From Aromatoleum buckelii (GTDB taxonomy: Bacteria > Pseudomonadota > Gammaproteobacteria > Burkholderiales > Rhodocyclaceae), in the NCBI RefSeq assembly GCF_012910785.2, contig NZ_WTVH02000007.1, forward strand, positions 1-55,295: a DNA stretch of 55,295 bases, written 5' to 3'. A program made the position numbers and the translations under genes. This document shows positions 30,777 through 51,945 of this stretch, piece by piece. The first letter of the stretch is position 1. Each line of letters starts with the position of its first letter. The notes beneath the pieces are model-generated. The model did not search any database. It had not been told where the DNA came from and saw nothing but the letters and a program-made list of their open reading frames with translations.

Positions 30777-32342
<1,566 letters not shown>

Positions 32343-32639: not shown

Positions 32640-32656
32640 GATGAGAGGTGGCCGCA

Positions 32657-33880
32657 ATGCTCACAGACGTCAAACTGAAGAGCCTCAAGCCAGCTGAGAA
32701 GGCGTACAAAGTCGCCGACCGCGACGCCATGTACGTCGTGGTGGCGCCGACAGGAGGCATCACGTTTCGGCTCGACTACCGCATCAACGGTCGCCGCGAG
32801 ACCTTGACACTTGGACGCTATGGGCCTGAAGGATTGTCCTTAGCCGAGGCAAGGGGGAAAGCGGTGGAGGCTCGCCGCCTGGCGGCCGAGGGAGTATCGC
32901 CTTCGGCAGAAAGGCGGAGGGCGAAGCGCAAGGCACGTGAGGCGAAGACCTTTGGGGACGCCGCGAGCGCCTGGCTCCAAGGTTATCGTATGGCCGACAG
33001 TACCCGCGCAATGCGCCAAAGCGTCCTCGAGCGCGACGTGCTGCCGAAATTCGGACGGCGAAAACTCGAGGAGATCACTGACGCCGACGTGCGTGACCTA
33101 TGCGATGCAGTGCTCAAGCGCGGCGCTCCAGCCACCGCGGTGCACGCCCGAGACGTTGTGAATCAGGTCTATCGCTGGGTGATCGAACGCGGCCAGAGGG
33201 TGAAGAACCCTGCCGAGATCGTTCGCCCTTCTTCGATAGCGACCTTTTTGCCGAAGGACCGTGCTCTGTCCGAAAAGGAAGTCGGCATCTTCTTGCTTGT
33301 CCTCGAAGAGGTGTCCACGCTGCCAACCATTCGCTTAGCGCTGCGTCTGCTCCTGCTGACACTCGTGCGCAAGGGCGAATTGCTGGCCGCGACCTGGGAT
33401 GAGGTCGATTTTATGAAAGCGGTCTGGACGATTCCGAAAGAACGGATGAAGGCGCGCCGGCCTCACAACGTGTATCTGTCACAGCAGGCTCTCGACATCC
33501 TCGTTGCGCTGAAAACCTGTGCGGGAGGGTCGTCCTACTTATTACCCTCCCGTTATGACGTCGACAAGCCGATCTCCAATGCGACCTTGAATCGGGTGAT
33601 TGATGTTGCAGTCGACCGGGCCATTGAACGCGCACTTCCATTGGAAAGGTTCACGGTGCATGACTTGCGCCGCACGGCTTCGACCCTGCTGCACGAGGCG
33701 GGATTCAATTCGGATTGGATTGAAAAGTGCCTCGCCCATGAGCAACGTGGGGTGAGGGCGGTCTACAACCGCGCCGAATATGCAGATCAGCGCCGTGACA
33801 TGCTGCAGCAGTGGGCCGATATGGTCGATAGCTGGGTGGTGGCACGCAGTAAGTCTGAGCCGTGTGCCCGAGCAAAATAG
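32657..33880 (+). CDS. P4-type tyrosine integrase
   Basis: A 407-residue site-specific recombinase. The N-terminal DUF4102 arm-binding domain (LTDVKLKSLKPAEKAYKVAD ... YRINGRRETLTLGRYGPEGL) is followed by a SAM-like core-binding domain and the catalytic domain with R238 (LVRKGELLA), H335 and R338 (VHDLRRTA), H361 (CLAHEQ) and nucleophile Y370 (VYNRAEY). All catalytic residues are present, so it is probably active. The open frame begins at a GTG at 32648; I prefer the ATG at 32657 because AGAGG lies 8 nt upstream. It catalyses insertion of the element at the guaA 3' end. Confidence 0.95.
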   Translation: MLTDVKLKSLKPAEKAYKVADRDAMYVVVAPTGGITFRLDYRINGRRETLTLGRYGPEGLSLAEARGKAVEARRLAAEGVSPSAERRRAKRKAREAKTFGDAASAWLQGYRMADSTRAMRQSVLERDVLPKFGRRKLEEITDADVRDLCDAVLKRGAPATAVHARDVVNQVYRWVIERGQRVKNPAEIVRPSSIATFLPKDRALSEKEVGIFLLVLEEVSTLPTIRLALRLLLLTLVRKGELLAATWDEVDFMKAVWTIPKERMKARRPHNVYLSQQALDILVALKTCAGGSSYLLPSRYDVDKPISNATLNRVIDVAVDRAIERALPLERFTVHDLRRTASTLLHEAGFNSDWIEKCLAHEQRGVRAVYNRAEYADQRRDMLQQWADMVDSWVVARSKSEPCARAK

Positions 33881-34230: not shown

Positions 34231-34802
34231 GGGGTGGCCTCCCTGCAGCCGGAATCTCCAGCGCCACCGAGGCGGAGAGTTGTGAGTTCGTTGTAACGAT
34301 CGAGGAAGAGATGCTTCGCTACGATGGGCGCAAGAGGTTGGATCGGGCGGGCGAGGGGCGAGGCCTGCGTCGTACCGATCCATGCGTCGTCGTGGGGTGG
34401 GTCGAGATCGCGCCGCGCGATGGCGCGTAATACGAGATCCGCGTACTTGACCGATGGCGGCAGGCAGGGCGGGGCGCCGAGGTCGGCCAGAATGTCTGCG
34501 GTCGTCTGGCTCTCGGCATTGAGGCACGCGGCGAGCAGTTTCCTGAGCGCATCTCCGGCGTGGAGGAGGAGCGCCGCCAGGGCGTCTTCGGGCGGCACGA
34601 TGGTGCTCGCCAGATAGTCGTGCTGCGCCACCGAATAGAAGGTGTGCGCGCGCCCCGCGAAGCAGCACGTGCTCGCGAGGACATGGGCGATGTCCCCGAT
34701 GCTTACCTGGCCCGGTGCTGTGTTTCCTCCACGGTCCTGACCGGCACCGATCCGGCCGGCGGTTCGGCGCATGACGTGCGCCGCCTGGGATTCATGTTTC
34801 AT
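34227..34802 (-). CDS. HD-like phosphohydrolase family protein with altered metal motif
   Basis: A 191-residue protein. The stretch SIGDIAHVLASTCCFAGRAH followed by TFYSVAQHDYLA matches the N-terminus of the small HD-domain phosphohydrolases of mobile elements, and VKYADLVLRAIARRDL matches the later ADxxLLxTExRDL element. At the place of the HD doublet the protein reads LLLHAGDALRKLL, so the canonical His-Asp metal pair is not preserved and it may be inactive or bind nucleotides only. Ribosome binding site AAGGAG lies 6 nt before ATG 34802. It overlaps the AlpA-like gene; one copy of the structured leader element lies about 480 bp upstream on the same strand. Confidence 0.65.
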   Translation of the reverse strand: MKHESQAAHVMRRTAGRIGAGQDRGGNTAPGQVSIGDIAHVLASTCCFAGRAHTFYSVAQHDYLASTIVPPEDALAALLLHAGDALRKLLAACLNAESQTTADILADLGAPPCLPPSVKYADLVLRAIARRDLDPPHDDAWIGTTQASPLARPIQPLAPIVAKHLFLDRYNELTTLRLGGAGDSGCREATP

Positions 34803-35477
34803 CTGTTTCTCCTTGCTGGCGTTCGTTGTCCGAATGGTCGATGCATGCCAAGGCCGGCCGACGGCGATTGCAGCGGTCGCAAGGCGGGGAATCAGGACGA
34901 GACGAAGTCAGAGCGGCGTGGAGAGCCGATCGACGAGCAAGGAAATGAGCGAGCGAGTCGCGTGAAGCGAGAGAGCGAGGCGTCCCCGCCGCGTCTCAAG
35001 GGGTGGCGTAGCGCTTTTGAGACGAGAGAAAAAAATACCGGCATGATCGCCGTTTGGCAAGTCCCGGCGAATTACCCAAGACGGGATGCTGCCGAGGTGT
35101 TGCCTAAGTTCCTGGTGCGATCTTTGATGTAAGTGGGCACCTGAATCGCCTCAGGATAGGTATGGCCGTAGGAGAGGCGCTCGGGGAAGGAGCCGGAGGG
35201 CGGGGGAGTAGGAGAACATCGGTCTCTCTTCGAAGAATGTCGGAGAGGCGTCTCCCACCGAGATCGACATGAATCGTGAGGCTGACCCCGGACCCGAAGG
35301 TCGTTCCGGTTACAGGGGCTGACCGGACGTTGAATATATTCGTAGGCGCCATACGCCGGCTCGTCAAGGGGCCGCTTCACAATGTGGCGATTGCGAGGTC
35401 CGGTTCTCTGTCGGTGGGTGGCGGCAAAGGAGTGGTCCCCGTGCGCACGACATCGTCAGCGTCGGCCGCGTGGACCT
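34803..35477 (-). other. 675-bp gap upstream of the HD-like gene; long untranslated leader region
   Basis: I find no convincing gene. On the minus strand, in order, it holds a TTGACG box (35362-35367), the pseudoknot element (35286-35326), several small hairpins including GGAGA/TCTCC, a 22-codon open frame at 35219-35151 preceded by GAGAGACC, and an 8-bp inverted repeat CGTCTCAA / TTGAGACG at 34992-35024. The arrangement suggests a long transcribed leader ending at the gene at 34802. Confidence 0.5.
35286..35326 (-). promoter_or_regulatory. Structured leader element, copy 1 (pseudoknot fold)
   Basis: Read on the minus strand: stem 1 CCGG/CCGG around the 13-nt loop TCAGCCCCTGTAA, linker AAC, stem 2 GACC/GGTC around TTCG, one C, then GGGG, which can pair with CCCC in the first loop. 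Thirty bases (35299-35328) are an exact inverted copy of 37432-37461. It lies between the kfrA-like gene and the HD-like gene and points toward the latter. Confidence 0.75.
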
Positions 35478-36359
35478 TTACGAAGCGCCCGTCACGGCGC
35501 TTTGCGCGGTGATGCCCTTGATGACGTCCAGATGGCCGGCATTCTGGGCGCGTAGCGCTTCCAACTCGCCATGGGCTTGAGCCAGACGAGCGGCCAGGTC
35601 GCGGGACTCCTTGCGCATCGTCGACAGCTCTGCCTCGAGGGTCGCGTCACGGCGCTTGTGATCCTGCAGCTGGCTGTCGAGCGTCGCCACTTCATGCGTG
35701 TGGCGCGCCTGGGTATCCGCCAGGCGCTCGGCGAGGCCTGCGGCTTTCGCCTCGGCGATCGCGGCCAGACGTTCGGCATCGGTGCGGGCGGCGCGCTCGG
35801 CGTCTACGGCACTGCGTAGCCGTTCGTTCTCCCTTTCGAGGATGGGCATGGCGTCGAGTCGAACCTGTGCCTTGGCCAACTCGGTGCGGGTGGTCTCGGC
35901 TGCCTGGCGCTCACGGGTCGCTTCATCCCGGACGGCGGAGCGGTCGATCTCCAGCTGCTCGATCTTTCCGGCGAGCGCCGCCTTCTCTTCCTGCGACGCT
36001 TGCAGGGCGTCCTCCACCGTCTGGATGTGGTCGGTCTGACGCTCGCTCTCGGCCGCGAGTTCGTCGGCAGCCGCTTGCACGTCGGACAACTTGGCGTCGA
36101 GGTCGGCCCGCGCCGTTGCCCGTTCCTGCGTCACGAAATCGAGAATTGCCCGTTGCAGCGCTGGGGGGAGGGCAGAACCCGCTTCGGTCGAGATGGGGTC
36201 GCTGCCTTCCCATCGTTGGAACAGCTTGTGGATGGTGCCCAAACTGCCGCTGCCGTGACGCTCGCGGATTTGGCGTGGGGTGGGCTTGCCGCCGGCGGCT
36301 TTGATCCGATCGGCGATGGCCGCCACCTGCTCGTAGGTGATGCTGGCTTCCCGGGGCAT
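35478..36359 (-). CDS. KfrA-like DNA-binding coiled-coil protein
   Basis: A 293-residue protein. The N-terminal ~60 residues (ITYEQVAAIADRIKAAGGKP, TPRQIRERHGSGSLGTIHKL, FQRWEG) form the KfrA helix-turn-helix domain. The remainder, about residues 85-280, is an almost uninterrupted charged coiled coil rich in Ala, Glu and Arg. KfrA proteins of plasmids bind DNA, repress their own promoter and help maintenance or segregation. Three iterated sites directly upstream of the start codon fit autoregulation. The gene is followed on the same strand by the HD-like and AlpA-like genes. Confidence 0.85.
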   Translation of the reverse strand: MPREASITYEQVAAIADRIKAAGGKPTPRQIRERHGSGSLGTIHKLFQRWEGSDPISTEAGSALPPALQRAILDFVTQERATARADLDAKLSDVQAAADELAAESERQTDHIQTVEDALQASQEEKAALAGKIEQLEIDRSAVRDEATRERQAAETTRTELAKAQVRLDAMPILERENERLRSAVDAERAARTDAERLAAIAEAKAAGLAERLADTQARHTHEVATLDSQLQDHKRRDATLEAELSTMRKESRDLAARLAQAHGELEALRAQNAGHLDVIKGITAQSAVTGAS

Positions 36360-36373
36360 GTCTCGTCGTCTCC

Positions 36374-36410
36374 TGTACGATACGTTACGTACGATTGGTT
36401 ACGGTACGAC
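36374..36410. promoter_or_regulatory. Iterated operator upstream of the kfrA-like gene
   Basis: GTACGA occurs at 36375, 36389 and 36404 (spacing 14 and 15 bp), with GTTACG at 36384 and 36398 between the copies, so the unit is about GTACGATNNGTTACG repeated. It ends 15 bp before the start codon of the kfrA-like gene and is probably the autoregulatory binding site of its product. Confidence 0.65.
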
Positions 36411-36434
36411 TCAAGGCTCCACTCCATCCTCTAT

Positions 36435-36797
36435 TCAGCCTCGTTGATTCTCGTGGTGGAGCGATTTCGCGGACGTCTCAGGTCCTTGGCCCGCCGGTGG
36501 CGTTCGTCGGGCCGCCAGATCAAGGGGTGTTCGAGCCGCCGACTTACCGCCCAGTGACGGTCTCGGCATCGGCCTTAGGCTTTCGCACCCGACCCAGTCT
36601 TCCCAGGCGGTGAGGACTTCACCGTCGATCTCGTCGGGGGCGAGGTCCTCGTGGGCGACCGGTGAACAGTCGATCCAGCGTATGCGCAGCAGTGGTCCGG
36701 TGCGTTCGAGGATCTCGACCCATCCGTGCTCGCGATGGATCGCCAGCTCACCCGGTCGCAGGCGGGATGGATGGGTGTTGATGTGTACGACGTTCAT
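36435..36797 (-). CDS. Small hypothetical protein of the element
   Basis: A 120-residue protein I do not recognise. It begins MNVVHINTHPSRLRPGELAI and contains HREHGWVEILERTGPLLRIR followed by WID, which looks like a small beta-barrel of the kind found in DNA- or RNA-polymerase-binding proteins; that is only a resemblance. The C-terminal ~40 residues are Pro/Arg-rich. The ATG at 36797 is preceded by GGAGGTGAGG, a very strong ribosome binding site, which is the main reason for calling the gene. It lies just upstream of the kfrA operator on the same strand. Confidence 0.6.
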   Translation of the reverse strand: MNVVHINTHPSRLRPGELAIHREHGWVEILERTGPLLRIRWIDCSPVAHEDLAPDEIDGEVLTAWEDWVGCESLRPMPRPSLGGKSAARTPLDLAARRTPPAGQGPETSAKSLHHENQRG

Positions 36798-37367
36798 ATC
36801 CCTCACCTCCATGTCAGGGGAATGTCATGTCATCACGGCGCGGAGGGCGCCAGGTTGTGTGCAGGTCCTCGAGCAGAGGAATTCCATCGGGGAGAGCAAT
36901 CGGCGCGTCGGGCCTTCCCGTGATGGAAGGGGCGCCAGCCCCCTGTCTGGAGGCGTCAAACGTGCGGGGGCGGCGTCAAATGCGGCGCATCAGCTGCCGC
37001 CGCAAAGGCGAGAGGTCGTGTGGCCGAAGAAGGGATGGTCGAGGCAAGCACGCGGCGTCCGGGTGGTTCGGCGTTGCCGGACTGAATAGGGGCGATCGGG
37101 GCCCCGCGTACCCAGGACACGTTCCGAAGTGGGTCTTGTCCGATCGGAAGCTGGCCGCAATCGTACGCGTAGGTCGCCGTCGGGCGGAAGAGATCATCTC
37201 CGTCCGCGGGACTATCGCTGATCAAACGGCGAAATGCAAGGCGGTTTGACAGGCGTCTTGCTCAGGCTGAAGGTGCGCTCGCATCGCTGCGCCGCTGTCA
37301 GGGCGCAATACGGCGGGTGTGCGCACTTGCAGTGGCACGCTGCCATGGGTTCGGTGGCGTTGCCCCG
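36798..37367. other. Gene-free region upstream of the STY4534 leader
   Basis: About 570 bp without a gene I can support. Short open frames exist on both strands but have arginine-rich, shadow-like composition and no ribosome binding sites. The region contains short GC-rich inverted repeats (for example GGGGCGCCAGCCCC near 36929) but nothing recognisable. An origin of transfer or replication could lie here; I see no nick-site motif to prove it. Confidence 0.4.
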
Positions 37368-37395
37368 TTGACGGGACGTGCTCGTGGCGTAGAAT
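37368..37395 (+). promoter_or_regulatory. Sigma-70 type promoter of the STY4534 leader
   Basis: TTGACG (37368-37373) and TAGAAT (37390-37395) are separated by 16 nt, a good sigma-70 promoter. Transcription would begin near 37402, giving a leader of about 160 nt that contains the pseudoknot element and two further hairpins before the ATG at 37562. Confidence 0.65.
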
Positions 37396-37408
37396 CACCG
37401 TCAGCAAT

Positions 37409-37561
37409 CGGCCATTTGGCCGTTGTCCTGCGTCCGGTCAGCCCCTGTAACCGGAACGACCGTCAGGTCTGGGGTTCCGTTTGTGTCACCCACCCGATCG
37501 GGAAGATCCTCTTCCCGGTCATGGGATGTGGTCTCCCGATTTTTTTCGTCTGGAGACCGTC
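37409..37561 (+). promoter_or_regulatory. Structured leader of the STY4534 gene, copy 2
   Basis: Elements in order: hairpin CGGCCA/TGGCCG (37409-37422); pseudoknot element 37434-37474 (stem 1 CCGG/CCGG around TCAGCCCCTGTAA, linker AAC, stem 2 GACC/GGTC around GTCA, T, GGGG); hairpin CGGGAAGA/TCTTCCCG (37499-37517) with outer pairing; hairpin GGTCTCC/GGAGACC (37530-37558) with a T-rich loop. The 3' arm of the last hairpin is the ribosome binding site, three bases before the ATG, so folding would hide it. Confidence 0.75.
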
Positions 37562-38068
37562 ATGACCGAATCCAAGCAAGTTGCTTCCAACTCCGCTCCC
37601 GAGAAGGAGCATTTCGATCTGCATACCAAGGGATGCGGCTATTTGGGCCGGGTCCGGTGGGTGAAACCGCGTGGCGGTGGTCGTCGAGGCGAGCCCTTTC
37701 TCGCATGCGCGATCAATGCTGTTCATGGATCCGTCACGGAACCCGCGTACACGTACTTTGACCTTCGAGTGGTCGGCGCCGAGTGTACCGAGCTCGTTGA
37801 ACGCTTCAAGCCGGATGTGCAGCAGGATCGCAAGGTCTTCGTGTCATTCCGCGTGGGCGATATCTACCCACATCTTTACTATGCGGACGTCAAGGATTCA
37901 GAAACCGGCGAACCCGGTAAGGAACCGAGAGTCATCATCAAGGGCCGTCTGCTGCTGCTGACGCACGTCAAGGTGGACGGTGAAACGGTCTTCGAGCGCC
38001 CGAAGACCATAGCTGTTCAGGAATCGGCCGAAAGCATTCATCAGGAACGCAACGGCACCAGCGGGTGA
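37562..38068 (+). CDS. STY4534 family ICE protein (DUF3577)
   Basis: A 168-residue core protein of SPI-7/PAGI-2/ICEclc-type elements. Family stretches: FDLHTKGCGYLGRVRWVKPR, GEPFLACAINAVHGS, YTYFDLRVVGAECTELV, VFVSFRVGDIYPHLYYAD, and IIKGRLLLLTHVKVDG. The fold resembles small single-strand DNA-binding beta barrels, and the family is annotated as replication-related, but no biochemical activity can be read from the sequence. It has its own promoter and a long structured leader, and is followed by an intrinsic terminator, so it appears monocistronic. Confidence 0.88.
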   Translation: MTESKQVASNSAPEKEHFDLHTKGCGYLGRVRWVKPRGGGRRGEPFLACAINAVHGSVTEPAYTYFDLRVVGAECTELVERFKPDVQQDRKVFVSFRVGDIYPHLYYADVKDSETGEPGKEPRVIIKGRLLLLTHVKVDGETVFERPKTIAVQESAESIHQERNGTSG

Positions 38069-38093
38069 TCACCCGGTCAGCCGCTTCAACCCC

Positions 38094-38119
38094 GGAGCCC
38101 TTCATCAAGAAGGGCTCTT
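38094..38119 (+). terminator. Intrinsic terminator after the STY4534 gene
   Basis: A perfect 9-bp stem GAGCCCTTC/GAAGGGCTC with a 5-nt loop, followed by TTTCTCC, starts 26 bp after the STY4534 stop. Confidence 0.8.
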
Positions 38120-38171
38120 TCTCCAGGCCACGGTCTGAAGAAAGAAGCTTTCGTTGTCTTCCAGCCGTTTT

Positions 38172-38460
38172 GCACGTTTCGGCAAAAACGTGCGTCGTGC
38201 GCCCAGTCAGCCCCTGAAACTGGGACGGCCGTCAGGCCCGGGGTCCGTCGGCAGGGATTTGCCTGTCCGCTTCGATCCTGTACCGGTCCGGAAACCCGGT
38301 GCATGTTTCAAAGCCGGGGCCACCGATCACGTTGGTGGCCCCCTTGTGTCGCACGCGCCGAGGGCTTGACCCATTCGGTGTCCGATTCTCAACCACCCAT
38401 CGGGGCGCTCGTCCCCTTCGGGTGGGCAGGCCTCCGATGTCACATTCGGAGATCGCGATC
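38172..38460 (+). promoter_or_regulatory. Structured leader of the DUF3275 gene, copy 3
   Basis: Elements in order: hairpin GCACGTTT/AAACGTGC (38172-38193); pseudoknot element 38203-38243 (stem 1 CCAG/CTGG around TCAGCCCCTGAAA, linker GAC, stem 2 GGCC/GGCC around GTCA, C, GGGG); strong hairpin GGGGCCACC/GGTGGCCCC (38316-38342); nested hairpin CCACCC/GGGTGG with inner GGGG/CCCC (38393-38425); and CTCCGA/TCGGAG (38432-38451), whose 3' arm contains the ribosome binding site for the GTG at 38461. Confidence 0.72.
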
Positions 38461-39114
38461 GTGAGCATTACCGTCGAAGGGACCCTGAACATCAAGCGTA
38501 TCAAGGGGGCCAATGGGCCGTTCTGTGTCGGCGACCTGCTGACCGACATCGGCGAGTTTCGCGTCAAGGATCCCATCCTCGACCAGTTCGAGGAAGGGAG
38601 CTACGCGGGGCGCTATATCATCCAGCGTATCTTCCCCTGGTCCTACGCCAGCAATGGCCGGCTCGTGCTGGAGATCCGCGCCCGACTCGTCGATCTGCAC
38701 GTTGATAGCGGCACCGAAAGGAGCTTGCCGGAAGCGCCGATCGAACCGGACCCCGCTGACGAGGTCTCGGCCCACACCGGTGATCCAGGTGTTGGGCATC
38801 GCGAGCTGGAGGCAAGCAATGCGCCCGCGATCGAACGCGGGCAGGGCGATGGGGCGCCGCCGGCGTCGCCCACCACGGGGCCGGATGAATCGCCCGACCT
38901 CGCGCTGTTCGGCGATGAACTCCACACGCTGGTCGCGGCGCGCCAACCGGTGAGGCTCGATCCGACCCTCGATGATCGCCGGCGCTTTCGGGCGCAGCGC
39001 AACCGCCTGAAAGCCGGACTCCAATACGGCTTTGTGCCGGAAGAGCAGGTTTGGTATCCGGAGGAATCCGACCGGTATCAGGCCTACCTCGCCGCGAAGG
39101 CGGGCTCCTCGTAG
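38461..39114 (+). CDS. DUF3275 family ICE protein
   Basis: A 217-residue core protein of the same ICE class. The N-terminal half is the DUF3275 domain: SITVEGTLNIKRIKGANGPF, CVGDLLTDIGEFRVKDPILD, FEEGSYAGRYIIQRIFPWSY, LEIRARLVDLHV. The C-terminal half is a proline/glutamate-rich linker and a final helix set ending DRYQAYLAAKAGSS. I use the GTG at 38461 rather than upstream ATGs, because it gives the family N-terminus and leaves the ribosome-site hairpin untranslated as in neighbouring genes. Function unknown; replication or maintenance of the element is the usual guess. Confidence 0.82.
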   Translation: MSITVEGTLNIKRIKGANGPFCVGDLLTDIGEFRVKDPILDQFEEGSYAGRYIIQRIFPWSYASNGRLVLEIRARLVDLHVDSGTERSLPEAPIEPDPADEVSAHTGDPGVGHRELEASNAPAIERGQGDGAPPASPTTGPDESPDLALFGDELHTLVAARQPVRLDPTLDDRRRFRAQRNRLKAGLQYGFVPEEQVWYPEESDRYQAYLAAKAGSS

Positions 39115-39499
39115 AACAATCCCGGCGGCCGACGCCGGCCGCCCGCCCGCGCGCGGGCTTTCTGAATCGAGCTCACTGCGTCACGGGACCAGTGCGTTTC
39201 GGAAAGCCCGCGAGGGGCCATGAACAACTGGGCAGCAGCACGCCCGATGTGTTGCGGCATTTGCGTCGGCGGTTTTGCCCCGCGCGCCCTTTCATCGGCA
39301 CCCACGCCTTCCACAGGGGTGCCTCGCACCCGAGCCACGGGCTTCCAGGGCAATGCGCCTGGGTCCGCGGGTGTGACGGAGGCATCGTTCAAGTCTCGTT
39401 CAAGCGGAACCAGCGGGTTCCCATCGTCGGCCTGCCCGGGCAGACCGACGATGGGAGTCCGTTTGCAGCGTGCGGCGATCGGCCCGCCGCGCGTGTTGC
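39115..39499. other. Gene-free region with hairpins before the DUF6094 leader
   Basis: No supportable gene. It holds a GC-rich hairpin at 39124-39146 (GGCGGCC/GGCCGCC) and a striking 36-bp nested hairpin at 39411-39446: outer arms CCCATCGTCGG/CCGACGATGGG around the palindrome CTGCCCGGGCAG. The outer arms start like the CCCATCGG hairpins in the other leaders of the element. Confidence 0.5.
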
Positions 39500-39636
39500 C
39501 TGATGCATCAGCCTGTCAGTCCCTGCAACAGGACCGAGCCTATCGCTCCGGGACATCGTCCACCACCACCCGCGGGTCGCGATCGACCCGTGGAGGGTCT
39601 GCGTCCCCCGCATGTTCTCTCCGAGGAGAAGATTCC
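39500..39636 (+). promoter_or_regulatory. Structured leader of the DUF6094 gene, copy 4
   Basis: Elements in order: palindrome CTGATGCATCAG (39500-39511); pseudoknot element 39512-39553 (stem 1 CCTG/CAGG around TCAGTCCCTGCAA, linker ACC, stem 2 GAGC/GCTC around CTATC, C, GGGA). The first loop has TCCC where other copies have CCCC, and the distal run has GGGA where others have GGGG, so pairing is kept. Then hairpin CGGGTCG/CGACCCG (around 39578-39595) and TTCTC/GAGAA (39615-39630) containing the ribosome binding site, 6 nt before the ATG. Confidence 0.72.
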
Positions 39637-40734
39637 ATGGCCCTGATATTCCCGCGCCTCGCGCGCAATTTCATCAAGAACGGCTACTTTCCGACCGACC
39701 AGGCGACGCTCGAGCGGATCGTTGTCGCCCTCGATGTGGCGGGCAATGCGCTGCGGATCCTCGATCCGTGCTGTGGAGAAGGCGCCGCACTCCACCGAGT
39801 CGGCGAGGCGCTGGCAGAATGCGGTGCCGCCGTTCAGACATTCGGCGTCGAGTTCGATGCCGAGCGGGCCTGGCATGCGAAATCCGTCCTGCACCTCGCG
39901 ATTCATGCCGACATTCAGGACGTCGTCGTAGCGCACAGATCGATGGGGCTCTTGTTCCTCAATCCGCCCTATGGAGATGCGGTGGCGGATCGGGCGCAGA
40001 CCGGCGACAAAGGACCGGACCGGCTCGAGAAGATCTTCTTCCGGCGGACCTTTCAAAGCCTCGCGTTCGGGGGCGTCCTCGTTCTTATCGTGCCCTACTA
40101 CGTGCTCGATGCGGAGTTCGCAGGCCTCCTCTCCCGCAACTTCGATCGCATTCGCTTCCATATGGCGCCGGAGCAGCAGTTCAAGCAGTGCGTGGTGTTC
40201 GGCGTTCGGCGCCGCTCGGACCGGTCTGAACCGCGCACCGTGTCGGCGCTCATCGCCGCCGGCAAGGGCGAGGCGCTCGACCAGGTGTTGCCCGAGTGCT
40301 GGACCGCCGAGCCGTATGCCGTGCCCGAGATTGCCGGTGGGGAAGGTCACTTCCACGCGGTCCGCATCGACGCCGCACAGCTCGCGGCCGAGGTGGCGCG
40401 ACTGCACCCCCACACGCTCTGGCCGCAGTTCCGGATCCACTTCGGTGGTACGAAATGCGCCCACCGCCCGCCCTTGACCGAAATGGGGCGATGGCACCTG
40501 GCGCTGGCGCTGGCGGCGGGCCAGGCTCACGGCATCGTGACCTCCGGCAGCGGTCGCACGCTGTTGATCAAGGGCGACACGTACAAGGACAAGGCCCGCT
40601 CCGTCGAATTTGCGGAAAGTCCGGACGGGACCGTCAGTGAAACCGTCATTCTCACCGACCGTTTCGTACCCGTGATACGCGGGATCGACTTCACGCCAGG
40701 GTCCAGGTTCGGGTCTGTCGTCACGATCCAATAG
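39637..40734 (+). CDS. DUF6094 methyltransferase-like ICE protein
   Basis: A 365-residue protein with a Rossmann methylase core: motif I RILDPCCGEGAALHRVGEAL at about residues 41-60 and the amino-methylase motif NPPY at 109-112 (LLFLNPPYGDAV), as in N6-adenine DNA methylases. Later stretches are GVLVLIVPYYVLDAEFAGLL and KQCVVFGVRRRS. The family is a conserved component of SPI-7-like elements; DNA methylation is plausible from the motifs but no recognition domain is seen. The ATG at 39637 is chosen over the long upstream open frame because of GGAGAA before it. It may protect the element or mark its replication. Confidence 0.82.
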   Translation: MALIFPRLARNFIKNGYFPTDQATLERIVVALDVAGNALRILDPCCGEGAALHRVGEALAECGAAVQTFGVEFDAERAWHAKSVLHLAIHADIQDVVVAHRSMGLLFLNPPYGDAVADRAQTGDKGPDRLEKIFFRRTFQSLAFGGVLVLIVPYYVLDAEFAGLLSRNFDRIRFHMAPEQQFKQCVVFGVRRRSDRSEPRTVSALIAAGKGEALDQVLPECWTAEPYAVPEIAGGEGHFHAVRIDAAQLAAEVARLHPHTLWPQFRIHFGGTKCAHRPPLTEMGRWHLALALAAGQAHGIVTSGSGRTLLIKGDTYKDKARSVEFAESPDGTVSETVILTDRFVPVIRGIDFTPGSRFGSVVTIQ

Positions 40735-40909
40735 GGCAGGGCAGACGCGCTGCACTTGGATCGGGTGGAGCACCGCTCCGCCTCGCCTTGCCGGCCCTCG
40801 GCGCCGGCACTTTGACCTCCACCGTGGCAACCCGAAGGGTCTCCCTCTCCGGGGCGAGCTCACCTTGGTGTTGCCTTCCAGCCATCTATCATTCATTGGG
40901 AGAAACGCG

Positions 40910-41533
40910 ATGCAGCAGGAAATCGATATGTGGGTGCTCGTGCGACACCGTGATGTGCCCCTGCCATCGAGCGCGGGCCGCAAGCGCTCGATGACGGATC
41001 CCGAGTGGCGAGCGGGGTGCCTCGAGTATCTTCAGACCACGTTGTTGTGCCACCCGGGCCCTCTTGCGCAGACGGAGGTCGTCTGGCCGCTGGCGTGCCG
41101 GGCGCCCGACGAGGCCGAGACCTTCTGGTCGACCCTCCGAGTGGTTCGGGCCAACTTCAACCACGCGCTGGCGAGCACCCTGAATCGCCTGTGCGCACTG
41201 CTCCCCGAGGCGGGCGCCGACCAGATGGAGATCCCAATCGGGCGCGACGGCGGTATCGATTGGTCGGAGGCCCTGTTTCCGTTGGGCGCCGCGCTTCTGA
41301 CGCACGTTGCGGAGCGGTTGCAGGACACGCGTGATTCCGCCGCTGCCGGCGGGGCCGTCCACCATGTGCTGAGCGACGTGGCGCGCCTCCTGTCGGACCA
41401 TCTCACCGATCAGTCGCCGTTTTTCGATGCGATCGCGCGGTCGGTACGTGTGCCGAGCGACAAGGTGCTGATGTCGGCGCTGGCGCAAGGCGAACTGCTC
41501 TTGCTTCCGGTCCGGCGCATCAGCGATCGATAG
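40910..41533 (+). CDS. Hypothetical ICE protein
   Basis: A 207-residue soluble, mostly helical protein I do not recognise. It starts MQQEIDMWVLVRHRDVPLPS and contains tryptophan-bearing helices (FWSTLRVVRANFNHALASTL, DWSEALFPLGAALLTHVAER). No catalytic motif is apparent. The ATG at 40910 follows GGGAGA by 6 nt. The 175-bp gap before it contains a GCCGGC inverted repeat but no copy of the pseudoknot element. Same strand and spacing as the ICE core genes around it. Confidence 0.6.
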   Translation: MQQEIDMWVLVRHRDVPLPSSAGRKRSMTDPEWRAGCLEYLQTTLLCHPGPLAQTEVVWPLACRAPDEAETFWSTLRVVRANFNHALASTLNRLCALLPEAGADQMEIPIGRDGGIDWSEALFPLGAALLTHVAERLQDTRDSAAAGGAVHHVLSDVARLLSDHLTDQSPFFDAIARSVRVPSDKVLMSALAQGELLLLPVRRISDR

Positions 41534-41640
41534 CTTCTCCTGGGGCGGCTGTGCCGCCGCAAGTCCTCTGCCCCCTTTATCACCCGTCGGGTCGCACGCC
41601 CGGCGGGCGGGGCCTCCGACGGGACATTCAGGAGCGAATC

Positions 41641-41985
41641 ATGCACAAATCGCGAAACTTCGACCGCGTGGCGGACGAGTACGAGCTCGCGCAGCTTCAG
41701 CCGCTTCGTGTCGCCCTGATGACGGCCGGTAACCCGGACCTGGGTCAGGATCCCGCACAACCACTGCTCAGCGTCCGGAATCGACTGCTGCCGGTCGCGA
41801 CGCTCGGAGACGCGAGCCGCGCCGTGTGCCGCTTCATCGACGAGCACAACGTCGGCGGCGGCAATTGGGCGGGCGGACAAGTCTTCGACGGCTGCGGCCA
41901 GCAGATCGCCTACGTGAGTTACAACGGGCGGGTGTGGCTGCCTGCGCGCACGGCGGCGCCTCGACTGACCGTCCACATGCATTGA
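41641..41985 (+). CDS. Hypothetical ICE protein
   Basis: A 114-residue protein without a recognised family. It begins MHKSRNFDRVADEYELAQLQ and ends with a compact beta-rich segment (GGNWAGGQVFDGCGQQIAYV, SYNGRVWLP). The ATG at 41641 has CAGGAG upstream; CTCC at 41611-41614 could pair with that GGAG as in the other leaders, and a CCCGTCGG/CCGGCGGG hairpin precedes it, but the pseudoknot element is absent. Confidence 0.6.
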   Translation: MHKSRNFDRVADEYELAQLQPLRVALMTAGNPDLGQDPAQPLLSVRNRLLPVATLGDASRAVCRFIDEHNVGGGNWAGGQVFDGCGQQIAYVSYNGRVWLPARTAAPRLTVHMH

Positions 41986-42106
41986 GAACCGAGTCCAAGG
42001 AGTTGTCTTTCCCCCGTGCCAGTCGGTGCGGGGCCTTTCTCCACTGCCTCGATGCGGCAATGAAGAAAGCGAGGCAATGGAGAAAGCGACTTCATGAAAT
42101 TGCCGG

Positions 42107-42257
42107 CGACTCGATTGAGTCGGCGCCGCGCACTGTCAGCCCCTGAAACAGCGACGGCCCTTCGGGGCCCGGGGTCTTCGTCCATTCATCCACCCCATCG
42201 GGAAGATCCGCTTCCCCGATGGGGGCGGCATCTCCCCATCTCACGAGGAGCTCTGTC
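42107..42257 (+). promoter_or_regulatory. Structured leader of the gene at 42258, copy 5
   Basis: Elements in order: hairpin CGACTC/GAGTCG (42107-42122); pseudoknot element 42132-42174 (stem 1 CTG/CAG around TCAGCCCCTGAAA, linker GAC, stem 2 GGCCC/GGGCC around TTCG, C, GGGG); hairpin CCCATCGGGAAG/CTTCCCCGATGGG (42194-42223, one bulged C); and CTCC/GGAG (42232-42250) covering the ribosome binding site, 7 nt before the ATG. Confidence 0.75.
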
Positions 42258-43274
42258 ATGGAAAACGTCGAAATCCGGTCGCCACGGGCGATTGAGGCGG
42301 AACCCATCATGTTGTCGATCGAGGGTTTCTCCGATCTGTACGCGGATGCCTGCGTCCGCGGCGAAGACGGCGAGCTGTTGCTGCTCTCCCTGTATGGACG
42401 CGACACCTCCGTGCTGCAGTTCATGTCGGCATTCTCGGTGCGTCGGGATCAGGGCGGCCTGCTCCAGGCGGGGCAGGCAAGCTTCAACCTGACCGAGGAG
42501 GGAGCACGACACACGGTTTTCGTCCCGGAGCCGGAACGGCTGCAGAAGTTCACGGGTCGTTTCCCTGACCGGAACCTGTTTGGATCCCTGACCCATACGT
42601 GGCTTTACGACCCGGTTCTGGTTCAGCCCGACCGGCCGGGGGCAACCGCCTGGCTGGTGAGTGACGAGCACGAAGTGCCGCGCTCCCAACTATGGGCTCT
42701 GATCCAGGACCTCAGCCCGCTGCCGCTCCTCGAACACTGGTGCGATCCGCTGCTCGACGGCCTGGGCGATCGGCTCTGCATGCCACTGAGCCGCTTCAAG
42801 TTCCCACCACTCGGCAAAGTCCGGGGCGTCCGCGTCACGCTCGAGGAGCGGTTCCAGGACATCGTTTCGATGGCCGTCAAGCAGGGTCTATTGACGCTCG
42901 AGGCGGACGACCTGGCCGCCGACGCGGCGGAACGAATCCGGGTGATCGCAGAAGCCTTGCCGCGCGCGCAGGCTTCGGCCAAACCCTTGTTCGAACTCGG
43001 TCGCGTGGTTATGACGGCAGGGGTCGAACTGCTCCTCGAACGTCATCCGGACCTCGTCGACCGCTGTCTCCGCGCCTACGTGCGGGGCGATTGGGGTGTG
43101 AGCTCCGAGCCTGAGCAGAACGACGAAGCCGTTCGATTGGGTGACTGCCGCATATTTGCTGCATATCCGATCGATCCGGCTCGACCGAGCGCGGGCTACG
43201 GCGCCAACACTTTGTGGATCATCACCGAAGCGGACCGCAGCGTCACGACCTTGCTGCTGCCCGACGAGTACTGA
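42258..43274 (+). CDS. Hypothetical ICE protein with conserved C-terminal TEADRS domain
   Basis: A 338-residue protein. The N-terminal two thirds are unrecognised. The last ~75 residues (DRCLRAYVRGDWGVSSEPEQ, NDEAVRLGDCRIFAAYPI, and LWIITEADRSVTTLLLPDEY) match a small domain recurring in phage and plasmid proteins of otherwise different architecture, always ending near the C-terminus with TEADRSxTTxLLPxEY. The role of that domain is unknown to me. The start ATG follows GAGGAG in the leader hairpin. Confidence 0.7.
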   Translation: MENVEIRSPRAIEAEPIMLSIEGFSDLYADACVRGEDGELLLLSLYGRDTSVLQFMSAFSVRRDQGGLLQAGQASFNLTEEGARHTVFVPEPERLQKFTGRFPDRNLFGSLTHTWLYDPVLVQPDRPGATAWLVSDEHEVPRSQLWALIQDLSPLPLLEHWCDPLLDGLGDRLCMPLSRFKFPPLGKVRGVRVTLEERFQDIVSMAVKQGLLTLEADDLAADAAERIRVIAEALPRAQASAKPLFELGRVVMTAGVELLLERHPDLVDRCLRAYVRGDWGVSSEPEQNDEAVRLGDCRIFAAYPIDPARPSAGYGANTLWIITEADRSVTTLLLPDEY

Positions 43275-47907: not shown

Positions 47908-50310
47908 ATGCGAACTGGCGTGATTACCGAAGCGGATACATGCCGCGAGTACGTCACGCCCCGGCTGGTGGAGGCGGGCTGGGGTATTGCACCCCATGTC
48001 ATCGGCGAGCAGCGCAGCTTCACCAACGGCCGCATCATCGTAGCGGGCGGCAAGGTGCGGCGTGGTAAGCAGAAGCGTGCGGACTATCTGCTGTATTACC
48101 GTCGCGATTTCCCACTTGCGGTGGTCGAAGCGAAGGAAGCGGGGCTGCCCGCGGAGACGGGGGTACAACAGGCGCGTGAATACGCGGAGATCCTCGGGCT
48201 CAAGTTCGCATATGCGACCAATGGCCAGCGCATCATCGAGATCGACTACATCACTGGCACCGAGCGCGAAGTGGAGCGCTACGCCACGCCGGACGAGTTG
48301 TTCGCCCGCCTGACCGCCGCGGCGCAACTATCCGAGAGCTCCGCACCGCACTTGCTGGAGCCCTTTAACCTCGTTTCCGGCAAGATTCCTCGCTACTATC
48401 AACAGGTCGCGATCCACCGGGTGATTGAGGCGATCCTGCAGGGGCAGGACCGTATCCTCGCCACTCTCGCCACGGGCACCGGCAAGACCTGCGTGGCGTT
48501 CCAGATCTGCTGGAAACTTTGGAACAGCCGGTGGAACAAAAATGGGGAGTACCGGCGACCGAAGATACTGTTTCTGGCCGACCGCAACATCCTTGTCGAT
48601 GACCCGATGGCCAGGATGTTCTCGCCCTTCGGCGACGCCCGGCACAAGATTGCCGGCGGTGACGTGAGCCAGGGCCGGGACATGTACTTCGGCATCTACC
48701 AGGCGCTGACCACGGCCAGCGAGGACGTCTTCCGCCAGTACCGTCCGGACTTCTTCGATCTCATCATCATCGATGAATGCCACCGCGGCTCCAGCCGTGA
48801 CGAAAGCGCTTGGCGCGCGGTGCTCGATTACTTCGCGCCGGCCGTGCAGTTCGGCATGACGGCTACCCCGCTGCGTGAGGAGTCCCGCGACACCTACGAA
48901 TATTTCGGCAACCCGGTCTATACCTACAGCCTGCGCCAGGGTATCGAGGATGGCTTTCTGGCGCCGTATCGGGTGCATCGGGTGATCACGACGGTCGATG
49001 CCGCGGGCTGGCGACCGAGCAAGGACGAGATCGACCGTTACGGCCGCGAGGTGCCCGACGAGGAGTACCAGACCAAGGATTTCGAGCGGGTGGTGGCGCT
49101 GCGTGCCCGCACGCGGGCGATGGCGCGACATTTCAGCGACTTCCTCAAGGGCACGGACCGCTTCGCAAAGACGCTGGTGTTTTGCGTCGATCAGGAGCAC
49201 GCGGCCGAAATGCGCCAGGAGCTTCTCAACCTCAATAGCGACCTGGTTGTGCAGTACCCGGATTATGTGTGCCGGGTCACCGCCGACGAGGGCGCCATCG
49301 GCTTGACCCACCTCGCGAACTTCCAGGACGTGGACAAGCCTACCCCGGTCATCCTCACGACCTCGCAGTTGCTGACCACGGGCGTCGATGCCGAGATGGT
49401 CAAGAACGTCGTCCTCGCGCGCGTCGTGGGCTCGCGCTCGGAGTTCAAGCAGATTGTCGGTCGTGGCACCCGTCTCAAGGTCGACTACGGCAAGGAGTAC
49501 TTCAACATCATCGATTTCACCGGCACGGCCACGCACCACTTTGCCGATCCGGACTTCGATGGCGAGCCAGCGCGCATCGAGGAAGTGACGATCGATGAGG
49601 CCGGCGAGCAGCTCGGCGTGACGACGCTTGAGCCGGAGCCGGAGACCACCGAAACGACCTTGCTGGAGTATGAGCTACCCGAAGAACAGATCGGACCGGG
49701 TACGGGCATGCTGATCGAGGAGCCGCCGCCCGAGCCCCGGAAGTTCTACATCGACGGCGGTGAGGTCGAGGTGATCGGCCATCTGGTGTACGACCTCGAC
49801 ACCGACGGCAAGAAGCTGCAGGTGGTTAAATACACCGAGTACTCGGGCCGCACCGTGCGTGCGCTGTATCCGACTCGCGAGGCGCTGCAATCGGCCTGGG
49901 CCAACCCCGATACGCGCAGCGAAGTGCTGCGCGAGCTTACCGAGCGCGGTATCAGCTTCGAGGAGCTGGCCACCACCAGCGATCAGGCCGACGCTGACCC
50001 CTTCGATCTGCTGTGTCACCTGGCCTGGAATGCGCCGCTGCTCACCCGTTGTCAACGCGCCGAGTTGGCGCGGCGCAAGGCGCCGGATCTGTTCGCGCAG
50101 TACGGTGACACCGCCCGAGAAATTTTGACGCTGCTGCTCGACCGCTACATCGAGCGTGGCATCCTCCAGTTCAACGCACTATCCGAGCTGATGAAGGTGC
50201 AACCCTTCGACCGCTACGGCAACCCTGGCGAAATCGCAGCCCGCCACTTTGGCGGCGTGCGCGGCATGAAGGATGCTGTGTCGCGCTTGCAGACTGCGCT
50301 GTACCAATAA
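47908..50310 (+). CDS. hsdR: Type I restriction enzyme, R subunit HsdR
   Basis: An 800-residue motor and nuclease subunit that translocates DNA and cuts unmethylated targets together with HsdM and HsdS. The N-terminal PD-(D/E)XK nuclease has D59 (KRADYLLYY), E74 and K76 (VVEAKEAG) and the QxxxY-like QQAREYAE. The helicase core has Walker A ATGTGKT with K193 and the DECH box at 289 (IIIDECHRGSS), TATPLREESRDTYEYFG, and motif VI VGRGTRLKVDYG. The C-terminal ~150 residues fit the EcoEI-type domain that contacts HsdM. All catalytic residues are intact. Confidence 0.95.
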   Translation: MRTGVITEADTCREYVTPRLVEAGWGIAPHVIGEQRSFTNGRIIVAGGKVRRGKQKRADYLLYYRRDFPLAVVEAKEAGLPAETGVQQAREYAEILGLKFAYATNGQRIIEIDYITGTEREVERYATPDELFARLTAAAQLSESSAPHLLEPFNLVSGKIPRYYQQVAIHRVIEAILQGQDRILATLATGTGKTCVAFQICWKLWNSRWNKNGEYRRPKILFLADRNILVDDPMARMFSPFGDARHKIAGGDVSQGRDMYFGIYQALTTASEDVFRQYRPDFFDLIIIDECHRGSSRDESAWRAVLDYFAPAVQFGMTATPLREESRDTYEYFGNPVYTYSLRQGIEDGFLAPYRVHRVITTVDAAGWRPSKDEIDRYGREVPDEEYQTKDFERVVALRARTRAMARHFSDFLKGTDRFAKTLVFCVDQEHAAEMRQELLNLNSDLVVQYPDYVCRVTADEGAIGLTHLANFQDVDKPTPVILTTSQLLTTGVDAEMVKNVVLARVVGSRSEFKQIVGRGTRLKVDYGKEYFNIIDFTGTATHHFADPDFDGEPARIEEVTIDEAGEQLGVTTLEPEPETTETTLLEYELPEEQIGPGTGMLIEEPPPEPRKFYIDGGEVEVIGHLVYDLDTDGKKLQVVKYTEYSGRTVRALYPTREALQSAWANPDTRSEVLRELTERGISFEELATTSDQADADPFDLLCHLAWNAPLLTRCQRAELARRKAPDLFAQYGDTAREILTLLLDRYIERGILQFNALSELMKVQPFDRYGNPGEIAARHFGGVRGMKDAVSRLQTALYQ

Positions 50311-50325
50311 AGAGAATCCGACTTG

Positions 50326-51945
50326 ATGGCCCGTTCCACCGCATCGACCGCTGCAAGCAGCACCGAAAAGAAGACCCGCGCCCCGCGTAAAGCGAAGGCG
50401 CCCCTCACCACCCGAGAGAACCTCTCCGCCCTGATCGGCACCGCCCGCAAGATCCTGCGCAAGGACAAGGGCCTCAACGGCGACGTGGACCGGTTGCCAC
50501 TGCTCACTTGGGTGATGTTCCTCAAGTTCCTCGACGATCTCGAGACCATTCACGAGGAAGAAGCCGAGCTCGACGGCAAGCCCTACCAGCCGATCATCGA
50601 GCGGCCATATCGCTGGCGCGACTGGGCTGCGCGCGAAGACGGCATCACGGGCGACGAGTTGCTCGCCTTCATCGGGCAGGATCTTACCGTGCGCCCCGAC
50701 GGCAAATCCGGGAAGGGCCTGTTCGCTCATCTGCGCGGCCTCGCCGGAGAGGGCGAGAAGGGCAGTCAGCGCGAAGTCATCGCCAACGTTTTCAAGGGCG
50801 TGCAGAACCGCATGGTCAGCGGCTACCTGCTGCGCGACATCCTCAACAAGATCAACGGCATCCACTTCTCGTCCAGCGAGGAGATCCACACCCTTTCGCA
50901 CCTATACGAATCCATGCTGCGCGAGATGCGCGATGCCGCTGGTGATGCGGGCGAGTTCTACACGCCGCGTCCATTAGTGCGCTTCATGGTGCGGGTTACC
51001 GACCCGCGGCTAGGTGAGACAGTCCTGGATCCGGCCTGTGGGACCGGCGGTTTTCTGGTCGAAGCCTACGACCACATCGCCCCGCAGGTGACCACGCCGG
51101 AAGAGCGCCGCACGCTGCAGCGTGACACCCTATACGGCCAGGAAGCCAAGCCCTTGCCCTACATGCTGGCGCAGATGAATCTGCTGCTGCATGGCCTGGA
51201 GGCACCGCAGATCGCCTACGGCAACACGCTCGATCGCCGGATCGCGGAGATCGGTCACAGCGAGCGGGTGGACGTCATCCTCACCAATCCGCCCTTCGGC
51301 GGAGAGGAGGAGGTCGGCATCAAGGCCAACTTCCCGCCCAACATGCAGACAGCGGAAACCGCGCTGCTCTTCCTGCAGTTCATCATGCGCAAGCTGCGCG
51401 TGGCGGGCGCCCCGGTGCTTGGCGGCAAACCGGCTGCACGGGGTGGCCGGGCCGCGGTGGTCGTGCCCAACGGCACCTTGTTCGGTGACGGTGTGTGTGC
51501 CGCCGTCAAGGAGGAGCTGCTCAAGTCCTTCAACCTCCACACCATCGTGCGCTTGCCGCAGGGCGTGTTCGCGCCCTACACCGACATTCCCGCCAACTTG
51601 CTGTTCTTCGAGCGCAGCGGCTCGACCGAGACCATCTGGTATTACGAACTGCCGCTGCCCGAGGGGCGCAAGAAGTACAGCAAGACCGCGCCGCTGCAAT
51701 TCGACGAGTTCGCTCAGATCACTGTCTGGTGGAACGACCGCCAGGAAGGCCCGCAGGCCTGGAAGGTGAGTGCCGCCGATATCGCGGCGCGCGGCTACAA
51801 CCTTGACTTGAAGAACCCCAACGCCAGGGCAGGTCTGGAGCATGCCGACCCCAAGGACCTGATCGCATCCATGCGCGGCCACGAGGCTGAGGTGATGCGA
51901 CTGCTGGGCGAGATCGAAGCGCTGGTGGCTGAGGTGCAGAGATGA
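50326..51945 (+). CDS. hsdM: Type I restriction-modification N6-adenine methyltransferase HsdM
   Basis: A 539-residue modification subunit. The N-terminal helical domain (LSALIGTARKILRKDKGLNG ... HLPLL-type HsdM_N region) is followed by the methylase domain: AGEFYTPRPLVRFMVRV, SAM motif VLDPACGTGGFLVEAYDH at about 233-250, and catalytic NPPF at 321-324 (VILTNPPFGGEEE). A lysine-rich N-terminal tail precedes the domain. I use the ATG at 50326, 3 bp after an in-frame TTG. It starts 15 bp after hsdR and overlaps the next gene by 4 bp. Confidence 0.95.
   Translation: MARSTASTAASSTEKKTRAPRKAKAPLTTRENLSALIGTARKILRKDKGLNGDVDRLPLLTWVMFLKFLDDLETIHEEEAELDGKPYQPIIERPYRWRDWAAREDGITGDELLAFIGQDLTVRPDGKSGKGLFAHLRGLAGEGEKGSQREVIANVFKGVQNRMVSGYLLRDILNKINGIHFSSSEEIHTLSHLYESMLREMRDAAGDAGEFYTPRPLVRFMVRVTDPRLGETVLDPACGTGGFLVEAYDHIAPQVTTPEERRTLQRDTLYGQEAKPLPYMLAQMNLLLHGLEAPQIAYGNTLDRRIAEIGHSERVDVILTNPPFGGEEEVGIKANFPPNMQTAETALLFLQFIMRKLRVAGAPVLGGKPAARGGRAAVVVPNGTLFGDGVCAAVKEELLKSFNLHTIVRLPQGVFAPYTDIPANLLFFERSGSTETIWYYELPLPEGRKKYSKTAPLQFDEFAQITVWWNDRQEGPQAWKVSAADIAARGYNLDLKNPNARAGLEHADPKDLIASMRGHEAEVMRLLGEIEALVAEVQR

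Follow-up and report, generated by a model that had tools for sequence, protein, structure and literature searches.

What does a short pseudoknot-like element do when it recurs ahead of several genes of one integrative and conjugative element (ICE)? The question is raised by a 55,295-nt stretch of Aromatoleum buckelii contig NZ_WTVH02000007.1 (here called the window; the genome comprises 4.16 Mb), which carries the left part of an ICE-like element located behind guaA. A sequence-only reading of the window had placed five copies of a repeated pseudoknot RNA element in it, and all five were found there as described (Table 1). We show here that selection clearly keeps the pseudoknot structure, and we discuss its position, its relation to known RNA families and the role it may play.

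Fold of the element and covariation of its helices

The five copies share one fold, as had been claimed, but stem 1 usually consists of 5 bp followed by the 2-nt linker AC, and not of 4 bp followed by 3 nt. From 5' to 3', the fold is made up of X (5 bp), the loop UCA, Y (5 bp), the loop UGNAA and X'. X' is followed by a linker that is mostly AC, by a hairpin of 3-5 bp, by a spacer that is mostly one pyrimidine, and by Y'. Y and Y' form the pseudoknot helix: the class is an H-type pseudoknot with an inserted hairpin, and its minimal unit is ~43 nt long. Stem 1 (X) has five pairs in three of the window copies, four pairs in copy 4, and three pairs, a mismatch and one further pair in copy 5. The pseudoknot reaches 5 bp (GYCCC/GGGRY) in all five copies.

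The exact loop TCAGYCCCTGNAA occurs six times in the whole genome, five of them inside the window, and the reversed control pattern occurs once; a covariance model detected a seventh genomic copy, with a variant loop. The two copies outside the window lie on another contig (C2:1839242 and C2:1842437). The first of these precedes the gene for a 193-aa protein which by eye is similar to the RadC protein of locus L016, and no clear gene was identified behind the second.

The proposal that this is a selected RNA structure with a covarying pseudoknot is supported by a site count, by shuffles of wider alignments and by a tree-aware test. The pattern TCAN5TGNAA was found at 136 distinct sites in 815 kb. 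The first four X pairs are present at 58 of them, and 54 of these 58 have a perfect 5-bp Y partner, compared with 0.36 expected from shuffled flanks; since relatedness is frequent among the 58, the counts refer to sites and not to independent events. In an alignment of 26 sequences (A1), standard pairs fill 97.5% of pair cells (83.8% when shuffled), 45 cells are doubly changed (14.3 when shuffled), and shifting the partner by one base lowers pairing to at most 61%. Alignment A3 consists of 70 hits (67 distinct) of a model which lacks Y pairing and favours GGGG by sequence, and includes some probably false rows (L066 8009 and L068 19417 look false). It gave 97.4% standard cells against 78.4% in shuffles and 167 doubly changed cells against 42.4, with all five measures beating 500 of 500 shuffles. 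Its Y cells are paired in 98.2% of cases, and four of the five Y pairs show change on both sides.

The tree-aware covariation test, our own implementation which imitates R-scape and is not R-scape itself, ranked 1,275 column pairs: the first nine are all predicted pairs, and the tenth is not predicted. X2, S2, X4 and S3 have E < 0.05, and X5, S4 and S1 have E values of 0.11, 0.81 and 1.7. X3, Y1, Y3 and X1 rank far down; they hardly vary, or they wobble.

Compensation is also seen among copies of a single element. The five copies on a Nitrogeniibacter plasmid (L102) each have a different, compensated Y helix (GCCTC/GAGGC, GCCCT/AGGGC, GTCCC/GGGAT, GCCCA/TGGGC and GTCCT/AGGAC), and in L058, from a genome of another family, Y is GCCTC/GAGGT in four copies and GCTTC/GAAGT in one. 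G-U cells exceed A-C cells by 61 to 6, or by 24 to 5 if Y1 is left aside, which argues that the gene-sense strand is the folding one. In a structure-free control, 47 viral contigs matched TCAGYCCCTGNAAC..GGGR, and only three of these, all with one identical sequence, had four stem-1 pairs.

Position in ICE leaders and distribution among genomes

The ICE genes of the window include those for an AlpA-domain protein, a KfrA_N protein, DUF3577, DUF3275, DUF6094 and a helicase. The sequence-only reading had put the element in the leaders of ICE genes. This describes four of the five copies but not copy 1, on the minus strand, which has no convincing open reading frame (ORF) close downstream. Further to the right, the window carries, as cargo, a type I restriction system of EcoAI type (47908-51945).

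Table 1 Pseudoknot copies and neighbouring features in the window.
Feature	Position	Strand	Remark
GMP synthase (guaA)	30777-32342		
Integrase-like gene	32648-33880		
Copy 1 (X 5' end to Y' 3' end)	35285..35327	-	no close ORF downstream
Promoter-like sequence of copy 1 (TTGACG, 17 nt, TACGAA)	35339..35367	-	conserved in five loci
Sigma-70-like promoter upstream of copy 2 (TTGACG, 16 nt, TAGAAT)	37368..37395	+	0/200 shuffles as good
Copy 2, leader of DUF3577 gene	37433..37475	+	
DUF3577 / STY4534-family gene	37562..38068	+	NCBIfam STY4534_fam below cut-off, 115.6 of 160 bits
Copy 3, long leader of DUF3275 gene	38202..38244	+	
DUF3275 gene	38461..39114	+	
Copy 4, leader of DUF6094 gene	39511..39554	+	TCCC/GGGA pseudoknot
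DUF6094 methyltransferase-family gene	39637..40734	+	
Copy 5, leader of gene at 42258	42131..42175	+	
Gene without Pfam family	42258..43274	+	relatives in other ICE modules

Across four annotated plasmid loci, all 11 copies are intergenic with respect to the listed genes and are oriented like the next coding sequence, with one qualification: the table of L102 skips a locus-tag number where copy 10045 lies, and an unlisted pseudogene is possible there. The distance from Y' to the start codon was measured for 11 leaders (copy 1, L101 9770, L102 10045, L106 10125 and L108 7092 are omitted from this set): it is 73-105 nt in eight, 202 and 216 nt in two leaders of DUF3275 genes, and 28 nt in one. 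ORF calls at 26 sites gave a distance of 66-83 nt at nine and of 65 nt, with a doubtful ORF, at one; the other 16 had other distances, doubtful ORFs or none.

Good sigma-70-like promoters, defined as having at most 2 of 200 shuffles as good, were found at 5 of 25 sites, all of them upstream of gene leaders: those of DUF3577 in the window, L102 and L059, that of a hypothetical gene in L060, and that of RadC in L016, where one copy type precedes the RadC gene. At copy 1, conservation across five loci covers both the pseudoknot and its promoter-like sequence, and the DNA behind them diverges; the promoter score by itself is ordinary (51 of 200 shuffles equally good). The region behind copy 1 (35060-34560, minus strand; also in L007-L009) contains a second promoter-like sequence at 35060-35032, and a conserved inverted repeat, GTCTCAA..TTGAGAC, lies ahead of a short ORF start that is conserved in relatives.

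DUF3577 leaders often have a hairpin, TCTCC..GGAGA, which covers the ribosome-binding site (window 37475-37561, L102 3764-3847, and upstream of 6010 in L112). It is strong in L102 and L112 and not significant in the window. Hairpins hiding the ribosome-binding site, counted where no more than 3 of 60 shuffles did as well, were detected for none of six genes in the window, for 12 of 59 further genes and for 1 of 14 pil genes, and we do not use them as evidence.

Pattern matches are present in 14 of the 17 genomes of the genus, and the close named relatives are three Aromatoleum genomes. We searched more widely with two covariance models, R1 and R2, the latter including Y and the hairpin. R1 matched 6 of 300 genomes of the order (G187 doubtful) and R2 matched 6 of 399 (G052 doubtful). 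Among 398 genomes of the phylum R1 matched three, convincingly only the A. buckelii genome itself; the doubtful matches are in G670 and G630, the latter by eye resembling the antisense of a tRNA end. Among 18 plasmid records examined of the 61 with DUF3577, copies were found in those of Comamonas, Nitrogeniibacter, Burkholderia cenocepacia and B. glumae.

Relation to STAXI, radC RNA and other ICE pseudoknots

The sequence-only reading had not recognised the element as a named riboswitch or thermometer, and Rfam 15 agrees: a search of the window at gathering thresholds, and of 34800-42700 at E ≤ 10, returned no match to it. Gathering and permissive thresholds together gave radC, STAXI, tRNA, psRNA2, RNA-OUT and chance matches, none of which lies on the element. 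The element is not isolated: its topology and its slot match those of the STAXI repeat unit and of radC RNA, a likeness that the sequence-only reading had missed. The open-access literature searched contained nothing that links STAXI with radC RNA and nothing that describes the element. A DUF3577 RNA motif was reportedly named by Weinberg in 2017; searches for the name found nothing, and the element matched no Rfam 15 family under any name.

STAXI RNA (RF01728) is described as two or usually three tandem pseudoknots of Enterobacteriales (PMC2864571). As read by our descriptor, three STAXI hits (L105, L114 and L116) each contain one unit that has the order X, Y, X', hairpin, Y' and a second loop of UGNRA type. 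Like the element, STAXI belongs to an ICE setting, and it stands before the STY4534/DUF3577 gene in Salmonella, Citrobacter and Pantoea records. The two differ in several respects: the element gave no match at the Rfam threshold of 40.5 bits; in the window it occurs as solitary copies with 769 nt or more between them, whereas STAXI units are in tandem; it is found in Rhodocyclales/Burkholderiales, with close named relatives in Aromatoleum, and STAXI in Enterobacteriales; and in STAXI units the hairpin follows directly after X'. The STAXI model matched 0 of 185 genomes of the class, with controls likewise unmatched, so that this count is no evidence of absence.

The radC RNA family (RF01754) is defined by its position before radC or other DNA-processing genes. 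All 13 radC hits read by descriptor, without a shuffle control, show the same helix order with a compensated Y, a feature that the output of the Rfam radC model does not mark as a pseudoknot; examples of Y are GATC/GATC, GGATC/GATCC, GGGT/ACCC and GGTC/GACC (L072, L103, L104, L107 and L118). Further likenesses are the presence of several copies per ICE and the genes that follow: radC RNA stands directly before STY4534/DUF3577 in L072 (G934), in P. aeruginosa (L103 and L118) and in Stutzerimonas (L107), with one gene lying between them in P. veronii (L104), while the element precedes a RadC gene in L016 and the DUF6094 methyltransferase-family gene in the window. As differences, the element lies below the Rfam threshold of 40 bits (no match), and the Rfam radC model is 149 nt long with further hairpins and has a second loop that is mostly without UG. 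Hairpins upstream of element copies were noted by eye only.

DUF3577 loci of other genomes also have several copies of a pseudoknot with the same topology and the Y strands GGATCGG/CCGATCC: L090 at 9235, 10167, 13037 and 18352 (three plus a GGACCG variant), L095 at 5979, 7980 and 10427, L097 at 209, 1806, 2220 and 3568 (three plus a GGACCGG variant) and L100 at 1096 (one). It differs from the element in its 7-bp X, its usually one-base first loop and its second loop of GAA, GCA or GTA, and is a class defined by descriptor only. Two neighbouring units with UGAGAA and UGAAA loops precede the STY4534-family gene of ICEhin1056 (L112 5772 and 5834) and are not called by Rfam. Another two units, with Y ATCTCC/GGAGAT, occur in L089 (13069 and 17193; G770), and one of their loops (TCAG..TGAGAG) looks intermediate between the element and STAXI.

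A pseudoknot of the UG..A type is present in 10 of 28 DUF3577 leaders (at most 1 of 100 shuffles as good), a number that includes near relatives (L103/L118; L105/L114/L116). Left out of this test were L059, L061, L075, L078, L079, L085-L088 and L117, some of them duplicates. An attempt to join the classes by sequence failed: R2 gave seven hits at E ≤ 5 on 25 other ICE loci, none at a STAXI or radC site. The best of these (0.042, L093) lacks the loop, and a hit in L089 (0.22) overlaps a pseudoknot found there. Two classes were never seen together at one locus: radC and STAXI hits were absent from 11 element loci, as were R2 hits from four radC loci and three GGATCGG loci. The surrounding genes are partly shared. 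DUF3577 is encoded in all 34 compared loci except the element-type L060, L062 and L063; DUF3275, DUF6094, the gene at 42258 and the helicase are common to the element, radC and GGATCGG classes, but the three STAXI loci, in the extent retrieved, contained none of them. When 11 window proteins were surveyed over the 34 loci for a class-specific partner, none marked the element alone beyond close relatives. We claim shared architecture and slot for the element, the STAXI unit and the radC core, not common descent.

Possible role and competing explanations

Our best explanation, which as a whole we hold with slightly more confidence than doubt, puts the element as a new sequence class into a broader group of ICE leader pseudoknots, together with the STAXI unit and the radC core, and sees in this selected structure a cis-acting, protein-read regulator of ICE maintenance and replication genes. 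The element would act in cis in the 5' leaders of these genes. A trans-acting protein would read the constant UCA and UGNAA loops within the folded shape and would set how strongly the downstream gene, whose start is usually 73-105 nt away, is expressed, and several ICE genes could thereby be controlled together. Copies within a single ICE already differ freely in their helices, yet UCA and UGNAA do not change, which points to a reader of the fold and not to antisense pairing. Control of translation is favoured by a spacing to the start codon that is short and, for the most part, steady. Four points of this picture are inferences: the functional form would be RNA and not single-stranded DNA, the reader would be a protein, the effect would be regulatory, and the step acted on would probably be translation.

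As a mode of working, the leader pseudoknot of T4 gene 32 offers a possible likeness: it is bound by a single-strand binding protein (SSB), which controls its own gene. We considered DUF3577 as an SSB-like reader and rejected it: the structure model was unusable (predicted local distance difference test score, pLDDT, 33.6), hhalign to SSB gave E = 0.39, and there was no PDB relative.

Several results weigh against our explanation. Of the five measures taken on A1, those counting pairs with double-sided change and further pair types did no better than shuffles (114 and 252 of 500). In the tree-aware test, the best pseudoknot pair, Y2, has E = 0.067, followed by Y5 (4.25), Y4 (10.3) and Y1 and Y3 (>100): support for the pseudoknot is the joint pattern and not any single significant pair. 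The UG..A-type fold is missing from 18 of the 28 DUF3577 leaders, including those of L102 (second loop TTAAA), of the radC-bearing L072, L104 and L107 and of the GGATCGG-type L083. Neither STAXI nor radC RNA is linked to the element by sequence models, 20 of 25 copies lack a clear promoter of their own, and copy 1 has no close ORF or gene downstream, either in the window or in its relatives among the five loci. Finally, no recogniser was found by the DUF3577 model, the SSB profile comparison or the survey of 11 window proteins across 34 loci.

The main rival is that the element serves transcription processivity: the nascent pseudoknot would modify RNA polymerase, which would then read past hairpins and boundaries along the ICE operon, with the repeats renewing the effect. 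HK022 put RNA is the analogy for such an element. Copies that recur along one module, often without their own promoter, and large hairpins upstream of internal copies fit this idea. The window region, however, has 7 terminator-like sites against 7.8 in shuffles (though L102 has 26 against 12.0), and such a role would not need the mostly short and steady distance to a start codon; we judge it unlikely. A small-molecule riboswitch aptamer would explain the compact pseudoknot with its constant loops, and an inserted hairpin is present too in riboswitches such as preQ1-II. But the downstream genes are mixed ICE genes and not those of one pathway, the sequence classes differ between ICEs at orthologous genes, which would be unusual for a fixed ligand, and Rfam riboswitches gave no matches, so that we give this idea little credence.

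We think it equally improbable that the structure acts in single-stranded DNA during conjugation, for instance as a single-strand promoter or loading site. The location in conjugative elements beside DNA-processing genes would suit such a role, which the authors of STAXI raise and doubt for their own motif (PMC2864571). Against it, the gene-sense strand keeps G-U and rarely A-C, although G-T in DNA would give an equal asymmetry; gene orientation is followed by 11 of 11 annotated copies; and upstream promoters are predicted to fire through some copies. A repeated binding site in duplex DNA, or chance, is hardly credible. Conserved primary sequence across repeated copies is what a binding site would predict, but three helices covary, one of them crossing, a single plasmid (L102) contains five compensated Y arms, and the 54 sites against 0.36 from shuffled flanks already contradict it.

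Beyond the protein-read leader pseudoknot that we prefer, a broader proposal can be made, tentatively and with the balance of our judgement somewhat against it: STAXI, radC RNA, the element and the GGATCGG pseudoknot may be one ICE regulatory device, a leader pseudoknot that is retained at the same genes. In each lineage its sequence would change in step with a reader encoded by the ICE, and an ICE would thereby govern its own genes for replication and DNA processing without responding to those of other ICEs. Copy 1 with its promoter-like sequence (35285-35367, minus strand) might then be a decoy RNA that tunes the partner.

STAXI and radC RNA have been catalogued since 2010, and the literature searched gave no function for either. 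A third, well covarying class at the same orthologous gene merges two puzzles into one: what reads a UCA/UGNAA pseudoknot before ICE genes? The element offers a 43-nt minimal unit for this question, natural variants, five of them compensated pseudoknots carried by a single plasmid, and, with Aromatoleum and Nitrogeniibacter, environmental hosts in which it can be tested. The answer bears on how ICEs control their DNA-processing genes until transfer.

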